48,461 nt of DNA, taken from the NCBI GenBank assembly GCA_938091805.1, contig CALKGV010000081.1:1-48461 (forward strand), in the 5' to 3' direction. Positions 32,028 through 34,388 of the stretch are shown in pieces (the first letter of the stretch is position 1; each line of letters starts with the position of its first letter). A model generated the notes under the pieces. The model did not search any database and was not told the DNA's origin. It saw only the letters and a list, made by a program, of their open reading frames with translations. The DNA is from an uncultured archaeon. Lineage in GTDB: Archaea > Thermoproteota > Bathyarchaeia > Bathyarchaeales > DTEX01. The position numbers and the translations under genes are program-made.

Positions 32028-33314
32028 CTATTTCTTCCTCCCTAACCTTTCAATGCCATTCATGTATGGTCTTAAAACTTCCGGTATTATGACTGATCCA
32101 TCCTTCTGCTGGTAATGCTCCAAAATAGCTATCATCGTTCGACTGGTCGCTAAAGCCGTGCTGTTCAATGTATGCACAAAACCTTTAGGCGGCTTCCCAG
32201 TTCCCTCTCGATATTTTATGTTCAATCTTCTCGCTTGATAATCTGTACAGTTTGAGTTTGAACCTATCTCCCTAAATTTCCCATCCACCATCCAAACTTC
32301 CGTATCGTATTTTTTGGCTGCGATAGAGCCTATATCACCAGTGCAGACATTAACCACCCGATAGTGTAATCCAAGCATTTGGTACATTTGCTCGCAATTC
32401 CATTGGAGCTCCTCATGAATCTCCCAGGATTGATTCGGCAAGCAGAAAACAAATTGCTCAACCTTGTTAAATTGATGCATTCTGAAGAAGCCCTTAGTAT
32501 ATTTGCCATGAGTTCCAACTTCCCGCCTAAAGTTGGTGCTTATCCCAACAAACTTCAGCGGCAGATCTTTCTTGTCGAGAACCTCATTCATATACATTGC
32601 TGCTATAGGATGCTCGCTTGTGGCAATGAGATATATATCCTCATTCTCAATCTTATACATGACGGACTCGAAATCTGCGATGTCAACGCAGCCCTCATAA
32701 GGCTTTCTGCGAAGCATGAAAGGAGGCTCAATCAATATATACCCACGTTTTCTAAGAAAGTCTATGGCAAACCTCTCTATCGCAAGATCTAATAGGACAA
32801 GCTCCTCCTTCAAATAATAGAAGCCTGACCCTGCAACCTTATTCGCTCTCTCCTCATCAACAAGCCCCAAATCAAGAGCTATCTCTAAATGCCCCTTGGG
32901 TTTAAAATCAAACTTTGGCGGTGAACCCCATCGCCTTATTTCAACATTATCGTTCTCATCGCGACCATAAGGAACCGATTCGTGCAACAGGTTTGGTATA
33001 CGCATGAGAATGCCTATAGATTTTCGCCTATACTCTTCTGTAATATCCTCCATCTCTCTTATTTTATTCTGCAACCTTTCAGCTTCCACTAACATCTGAA
33101 CCACATCTTCCTCCGTCTTCTTTCTTTGAGCAATTTCAAGGCTTAGTTGATTTCGTTTCTTCCTTAGATTATTTAATTCTGTTTGCATTAACCGCCACTG
33201 CCTATCAACCTCTATAAACTCCTCTAGGATTCTAAGTTTTTCCGGATCATTCCTTCTACTGATATTTTCCCTAACAAGATTCGGATTCTCCCTTATCAGC
33301 TTAACATCGATCAT
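32028..33314 (-). CDS. serS: Seryl-tRNA synthetase
   Basis: MIDVKLIRENPNLVRENISRR N-terminal coiled coil, FRREVGTHGKYTKGFFRMHQFNKVEQFVF motif 2, and NSTALATSRTMIAILEHYQ motif 3. Confidence 0.97.
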   Translation of the reverse strand: MIDVKLIRENPNLVRENISRRNDPEKLRILEEFIEVDRQWRLMQTELNNLRKKRNQLSLEIAQRKKTEEDVVQMLVEAERLQNKIREMEDITEEYRRKSIGILMRIPNLLHESVPYGRDENDNVEIRRWGSPPKFDFKPKGHLEIALDLGLVDEERANKVAGSGFYYLKEELVLLDLAIERFAIDFLRKRGYILIEPPFMLRRKPYEGCVDIADFESVMYKIENEDIYLIATSEHPIAAMYMNEVLDKKDLPLKFVGISTNFRREVGTHGKYTKGFFRMHQFNKVEQFVFCLPNQSWEIHEELQWNCEQMYQMLGLHYRVVNVCTGDIGSIAAKKYDTEVWMVDGKFREIGSNSNCTDYQARRLNIKYREGTGKPPKGFVHTLNSTALATSRTMIAILEHYQQKDGSVIIPEVLRPYMNGIERLGRKK

Positions 33315-33392
33315 TCATAGCACCAGCGCCTTTTAAAAACCATGAATTTATTCAAATAGGGATTAATATAAAGATGTAGGTCTCTGCGATGT

Positions 33393-33452
33393 TGTCAAGT
33401 TAAGCCCATTTATTTAAATACTCCTTTATAAATACAGTATCTTAACTTGACA
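33393..33452. repeat. 60-bp hairpin-forming inverted repeat (12-bp arms)
   Basis: TGTCAAGTTAAG (33393-33404) and CTTAACTTGACA (33441-33452) are perfect reverse complements around an AT-rich centre. Confidence 0.8.
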
Positions 33453-33470
33453 GTATCGTCTCTGCCTCAG

Positions 33471-33633
33471 GGGCGTGTCCAATAATTACTTAAATTTTGA
33501 TGTTTCTGAACTGTTTTTCCGGATTAAGCTATCCTTCGCCACCATTTACGATCGGCTGAAGAGGCGGAAATACTCTCCCCTTCACTGTTCCAGCATGGAA
33601 AACAATTCTCCACAATAATTATTGGACACGCCC
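33471..33633. mobile_element. MITE-like non-autonomous element, 163 bp, with 18-bp TIRs and 10-bp direct repeat
   Basis: Left TIR GGGCGTGTCCAATAATTA (33471-33488); right TAATTATTGGACACGCCC (33616-33633), an exact reverse complement. Flanked by TCTGCCTCAG at 33461-33470 and 33634-33643. Confidence 0.85.
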
Positions 33634-33695
33634 TCTGCCTCAGCAAACCTTTAATATTACTCCACAATTAATTTGGGTTGCAGTGGTGTTGAGAA

Positions 33696-34388
33696 ATGTC
33701 GAAAAGCACTAGAGTTAGGGATAAGTGGCGTAGCAAAAAATGGTTCACCGTAGTGACACCGCCATACTTTGGAAGCGTTGAAATAGGAGCTGTACCAGCT
33801 GATGACCCGCAGAAGATTATAGGCAGGGTTATTGAGTCAACGCTTTACGATATAACGGAGGACTTCGCCCATCAATACTTGAAGACTTACTTCCAAGTTG
33901 TTGGGGTAGATGGCAAAAAGGCTTTAACAATCTTTAAGGGGCATGAATATTCCCGTGATTACCTTAGGAGCCTAGTTAGGAGGAGGACAACACGTGTGGA
34001 CGGAATATTCGACGTGGTCACGAAAGATAATTACAAGTTAAGAGTTGCCGCATGCGCCTTCACGAATACGAGGATAAAGACATCCCAGGAGACGGAAATA
34101 CGGGCGATAATGAAGAGAATTATTGAGGAAAAAGCTCAATCACTCAGCTTTGACCAGTTTGTACAAGAAGCCGTATTAGGTAAAATAGCCTCAGACATCT
34201 ATAATGAAACTAAAAAAATAGCGCCCCTACGTCATGTGGGCATAAGGAAGTCTAAAGTGCTTTCAAAGCCGCAAGTTCAGATCGGAACTGAGAAGACAGA
34301 AGGCACCTCCGCCATAATTAATGAGGACGCTGAAGCCTCCTCATCTGAGGAATCGAATGAGGATTTGGAAGACAGCAAGAGCAAGTAA
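33696..34388 (+). CDS. rps3ae: 30S ribosomal protein S3Ae (eS1)
   Basis: VRDKWRSKKWFTVVTPPYFGSVEIGAVPADDPQKIIGRVIESTLYDITEDFAHQYLK. Confidence 0.96.
   Translation: MSKSTRVRDKWRSKKWFTVVTPPYFGSVEIGAVPADDPQKIIGRVIESTLYDITEDFAHQYLKTYFQVVGVDGKKALTIFKGHEYSRDYLRSLVRRRTTRVDGIFDVVTKDNYKLRVAACAFTNTRIKTSQETEIRAIMKRIIEEKAQSLSFDQFVQEAVLGKIASDIYNETKKIAPLRHVGIRKSKVLSKPQVQIGTEKTEGTSAIINEDAEASSSEESNEDLEDSKSK

Follow-up and report, generated by a model that had tools for sequence, protein, structure and literature searches.

The window (the whole 48,461-nucleotide stretch of DNA that was analysed) carries two divergent neighbours, serS (32028..33314, minus strand), encoding seryl-tRNA synthetase, and rps3ae (33696..34388, plus strand), encoding ribosomal protein S3Ae; Pfam confirms both genes (PF02403 and PF00587 for the former; PF01015, E = 6.4e-76, for the latter). 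Between them, in what a preliminary description had called the divergent promoter region of the pair, lies a 163-bp unit (33471..33633, plus strand) that contains no long ORF. It begins with an 18-bp TIR, GGGCGTGTCCAATAATTA (33471..33488, plus strand), the exact reverse complement of which forms its other end (33616..33633, minus strand), and it is flanked on both sides by the 10-bp repeat TCTGCCTCAG (33461..33470 and 33634..33643). The location, the perfect TIRs, the flanking repeats and the lack of a long ORF had all been described before, and each is correct to the base. The right-hand repeat abuts the predicted BRE/TATA core promoter of rps3ae, AGCAAACCTTTAATA (33642..33656, plus strand), which starts at base 9 outside the unit and was found with a matrix learnt without rps3ae.

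Two features go beyond the preliminary description, namely a fixed spacing between such insertions and promoters (see below) and a second, unrelated MITE of 70 bp in the same spacer (33388..33457; TIR GATACTGTCAAGTTAAG, left TIR here GATGTTGTCAAGTTAAG). The latter is flanked by the 8-bp repeat GTCTCTGC (33380-33387 and 33458-33465), so that its target-site duplication (TSD) overlaps that of the 163-bp element. Its family has 8-9-bp TSDs and near-identical copies in the same-genus genome G001.

The preliminary description proposed that the 163-bp unit is a MITE, and suggested looking for further copies. A sequence search of the source genome (1.71 Mb in 112 contigs; its relatives place it in the class Bathyarchaeia; this and the other genomes compared are draft assemblies) listed, besides the window copy, 16 matches that are 78-170 bp long and 84-97% identical, for a total of about 17 copies. 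The first 17 bp of the TIR, with at most two mismatches, occur 35 times in this genome compared with 0 times for the reversed control sequence, a repetition far beyond chance, and the outcome that would have left the unit a singleton did not occur. Additional copies are present in G001, in G003 and in two uncultured-archaeon bins (MAXBIN_124 and MAXBIN_053). Further Bathyarchaeota bins and a Thermoplasmata bin hold related elements that have the TIR variant GGGCGTGTCCAAGAATT and different interiors. This last bin, B31_G17, contains 222-bp MITEs with the same TIR core (L109:1548-1769 and L126:2197-2418), and the second of these has a strong promoter match at offset 8; provided that B31_G17 was binned correctly, more than one phylum may carry the family.

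Given its place in the common upstream region of two housekeeping genes, the unit might instead have been a conserved regulatory RNA or UTR of rps3ae and serS. We regard this as extremely improbable: copies of the unit stand at unrelated genes in both orientations, the rps3ae site is empty in relatives, Rfam gave nothing above threshold for the 163 bp, and two overlapping sub-stretches of it, folded as RNA, do no better than shuffled sequences. Together these results refute the idea.

Long TSDs are a second hallmark of the family. Perfect 10-bp duplications flank three copies (10/10 in L001, L013 and L015) and perfect 9-bp duplications two others (9/9 in L005 and L012), while the imperfect 10-bp duplications range over 7-9/10 (9/10 in L002 and L006, 8/10 in L011 and L014), and several truncated, displaced or differently placed copies have none. 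Empty sites were sought with one joined-flank query against ten genomes of the same genus. At the rps3ae site, G001 (L214) reads ...AAGATGTAGGTCTCTGCCTCAGCAAACCTTTAATATTA..., with one TCTGCCTCAG and no MITE, just as had been predicted for a 10-bp TSD; the empty sites in G001 and G003 also lack the 70-bp MITE. In all, five loci have empty sites with one target copy: L001, L002 and L012 in G001, and L005 and L013 in both G001 and G003. On the strength of the multi-copy family, its TSDs and the G001 empty site, we identify the 163-bp unit as a real MITE, a non-autonomous transposon. The single target copy in G001 is most simply explained by an insertion younger than the split from that genome.

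Most copies of the family are intergenic, and both orientations relative to the promoter occur. At one promoter, G001 has an old, degenerate MITE (contig C100, L105), and G000 has, in addition to a similar old copy, a deleted IS and, beside the promoter, a younger MITE (C108:17541-18250, L057), apparently through repeated insertion at one spot. At another MITE (L129:5681-5845), both flanks, read outward, begin TCACAAAGCAAAAAT, and each has a promoter match; this copy has no direct TSD at its flanks, and an inversion between copies is a possible explanation.

The flanks of the insertions, read outward, share a recurrent pattern of about 10 variable bases, corresponding to the TSD, followed by AAA-NN-TTWWA. 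To place this pattern relative to promoters, we used a 15-position matrix trained by expectation-maximisation on 29 regions upstream of other window genes, with rps3ae excluded; it converged on NRWWAAWCTTWAATA, the archaeal BRE/TATA sequence, and was scored blindly over 45 offsets at 41 insertions. In 23 of the 41 the best predicted promoter match is at offset 8 or 9, and in 27 it is at offsets 7-10. With a score of at least 3 bits, a match at offset 8-9 is found for 26 of the 41, whereas sliding the insertion point along its own neighbourhood leads one to expect 1.58 (p = 5e-31). One promoter shared by G000 and G001 enters the 41 twice, as L004 and as L105, which leaves the conclusion unchanged. 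Among elements fetched later, after the hypothesis had been formed, five of eight lie at offset 8-9 (0.20 expected). When all 64 ends are pooled, with no choice of side, the motif is again visible (position 12 is A in 73% and position 17 is T in 62%). The TSD sequence itself has little preference. At about 15 of the 41 insertions the modal spacing yields no clear predicted promoter; among them are insertions with only one readable end and insertions that adjoin another IS. From these sequences, the family tends to land directly upstream of a predicted core promoter, with the TSD abutting the BRE.

Could such a distribution arise from random insertion, with selection keeping the harmless intergenic copies upstream of promoters? 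Selection would also yield mostly intergenic copies. Yet avoidance of genes cannot yield a spacing constant to 1-2 bp, as seen at offsets 8-9 in 26 of 41 insertions (p ~5e-31), and an 815-bp IS of the PF01609 type survives in the same genome at many positions without it. Used as a negative control, this IS has one of 23 ends at the spacing (none at 5 bits) compared with 27 of 64 ends of the MITE family (Fisher p = 6e-4). Selection can account for the intergenic place but not for the spacing, and site choice at integration is the best account of the latter; random insertion followed by selection appears very unlikely.

Features downstream suggest that the flanking BRE/TATA promoters, although predicted from a matrix, are genuine. 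Besides rps3ae in the window, there are many ORFs on the downstream side that begin 55-73 nt from the element. On contig C80 the downstream gene encodes 5S rRNA, the 5' end of which lies 49 nt from the TIR. Counted from that end, the TATA box spans roughly -33 to -26 and the TSD roughly -48 to -39. Given the position of TFB on the BRE in the general picture of the archaeal initiation complex, the cut at C80 would fall at the upstream edge of the expected TFB-BRE contact.

What enzyme might move these elements? Full-length IS elements with related TIRs, which the preliminary description had suggested seeking, do exist. A phylum-wide search found an intact IS of 842 bp in G375 (L167), with ends GGGCGTGTCCAACT, a 268-aa reading frame and promoter matches at offset 9 on both sides. 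Its protein has the DDE triad (D in VVDST, D in LGDGAFDAK and E in YRGVGEGIF) and the C-terminal Y-x2-R-x3-E block. The best family match is NF033579 (IS5 family; E = 8e-8, C-terminal part), at 32.1 bits against a curated cut-off of 140, and PF01609 also stays below its cut-off (E = 7e-4; 19.9 against 23); with both scores short of these thresholds, we label the predicted transposase IS5-like rather than a member of IS5. The earlier lead, offered tentatively, was to IS4-like transposases, and the IS5-like DDE transposase fits better. The Pfam scan of two intact transposases found no Mutator model.

The 842-bp IS, with its GGGCGTGTCCAA ends, is the probable autonomous relative of the MITE. The link consists of shared TIRs only, 12 bp in the case of L167 rather than 17, the interior of the MITE is unlike the IS ends, and the flanks of L167 show no TSD; TSDs of the IS5 family are usually shorter than 10 bp. 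Closer in its ends is a degenerate IS (L112; left end GGGCGTGTCCAATAATTGACTT...), whose left 17-bp TIR is identical to that of the MITE. It also carries a transposase C-terminus that is matched by a reading frame in the source genome, where contigs C80 and C14 stop inside a TIR-bearing element. Since L112 has both this left end and this C-terminus, the C80/C14 element appears to have arisen by internal deletion. The source genome, a draft of 112 contigs, yielded no complete autonomous copy. A more distant group has GAGCGTGTC ends (L169, L172).

Several other candidates were rejected. The 815-bp PF01609 IS is abundant, but its ends, TGAACTCATCTC, are unlike those of the MITE. Paired TIRs 958 bp apart in Zhongshania (L107) are a chance pair, and the ORF they enclose reads in translation as accA. 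Apparent transposase relatives on viral contigs (L163-165) reduce to one short chance peptide in another protein, and the element at the ends of C63 and C49 (TTTGGCAAATTTAACG...) is a distinct multi-copy element that was either joined to MITE ends or inserted in them.

The MITE family, its TSDs, its empty sites and its fixed promoter spacing can be read from the genomes themselves; from these and the shared ends we infer that an IS5-like transposase is the mobilising enzyme and that integration, not selection, fixes the spacing. In the model that we favour, with a probability of roughly 0.85, an IS5-like DDE transposase recognises the GGGCGTGTCCAA ends and moves the MITE in trans, making a staggered cut of about 10 bp at a target set by its position relative to the core promoter. 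The duplicated 10 bp would end up directly upstream of the BRE and the TATA box would start about 16 bp from the MITE, so that the insertion goes between genes and the core promoter stays intact. The preferred landing spot suggests that the transposase finds genes through their promoters.

How the promoter would be read is more finely balanced. The informative bases are one-sided and lie outside the TSD, which makes recognition of a TBP/TFB-DNA complex attractive: the transposase might contact TFB or TBP on the BRE/TATA and cut the 10 bp just past the TFB footprint, a putative counterpart, among archaeal DNA transposons, of the way in which TFIIIB directs Ty3 that we consider plausible but tentative. 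Alternatively, the transposase may itself read an ordinary one-sided DNA motif (approximately RNAAANNTTWWA) that merely coincides with the core promoter, with no transcription factor involved. The signal is, after all, a DNA motif, and at L087 a weak version of it, ACGAAAACCTATTA, occurs where no ORF of at least 50 aa starts within 160 bp. Transposition targets that are recognised directly, however, are usually symmetric and centred on the TSD, whereas this motif is one-sided and outside a TSD that has itself little sequence preference. We divide our expectation about evenly between reading of the TBP/TFB complex and the transposase's own reading of DNA.

At the rps3ae locus, the insertion left the predicted core promoter (33642-33656) intact and replaced the DNA formerly upstream of it, a loss that came after the divergence from the closest relative compared. 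The two MITEs together moved two divergent promoters that had been close about 250 bp farther apart, and the 163-bp element would have pushed the predicted serS promoter away. An effect on the expression of rps3ae and serS, as was proposed earlier, is possible. Promoter-like sites inside the MITE score only moderately: the best, near 33506 on the minus strand, reaches 6.5, and the rps3ae promoter itself 6.1. The matrix would allow a weak promoter within the element.

Other mobile elements of these genomes may favour similar positions. Three other copies of the 70-bp family (L231, L232 and L002), a small sample, have a BRE/TATA match some 12-13 bp beyond their ends, and this family may use the same landing zone as the 163-bp family. 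Another element, which ends GGACGTGGCAACTTAAGG and retains parts of a DDE-like transposase, is repeatedly found near ends of the MITE family (L004, L015, L016, L017 and L024, on C108, C80, C91, C1 and C41, respectively). At two other ends of this element (L016, L086) the offset to a BRE/TATA match is 12-13, and a further IS of these genomes may perhaps share the landing zone. The 815-bp PF01609 IS abuts truncated MITE halves at the start of C63 and the end of C1 (L007, L017), as if it had inserted into MITEs and, in nesting there, also broken the assembly.

The spacing suggests a way for short mobile elements to persist in the compact genomes of archaea, and the ends of such MITEs could serve as markers of core promoters in uncultured archaea. 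Promoter-guided integration is already known from some bacterial elements and from yeast retrotransposons; for an archaeal element tied to BRE/TATA, we found no published equivalent in the open literature searched. The yeast retrotransposons Ty3 and Ty1 insert at a constant position upstream of where transcription starts; for Ty3 the guide is TFIIIB, which contains TBP and Brf1, the homologues of archaeal TBP and TFB. Unlike the MITE family, these are retroelements with an integrase, and the parallel would be mechanistic only. If the proposed recognition is true, a DNA transposon keyed to BRE/TATA would offer a simple test system for a transposase reading a transcription complex, with archaeal homologues of the eukaryotic factors that guide Ty3.

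With the IS5 family (NF033579) the L167 protein shares the DDE triad and the C-terminal Y-x2-R-x3-E block; it differs in its score (32 against a cut-off of 140), the 9-10-bp TSD and the promoter-linked target. Among archaeal MITEs, SM1-SM4 of Sulfolobus solfataricus are, like the element in the window, short, multi-copy, non-autonomous, TIR-ended and moved in trans, and the portions consulted of a review that covers them make no mention of a fixed promoter spacing (PMC10969869). ISH6 (p-MULT 2), a mostly archaeal group, has been suggested to favour AT-rich, perhaps promoter, DNA; unlike in the MITE family, the preference lies in the duplicated motif AANATNTT itself, and no fixed BRE/TATA spacing is reported in the sections consulted (PMC3942029). 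A further likeness, a functional one only, is to the TnGBS, ISLre2 and ISKra4-group elements (p-MULT 3 and 4), which carry Mutator-like DDE transposases, insert 15-17 bp upstream of the sigma-A -35 box and, where their ends are near-symmetric, do so in both orientations (PMC3942029). The MITE family likewise lies at a fixed distance upstream of predicted promoters (offset 8-9) and in both orientations, but here the promoters are archaeal BRE/TATA rather than sigma-A, the 9-10-bp TSD abuts the BRE, and the candidate transposase is IS5-like, with no Mutator match in Pfam.
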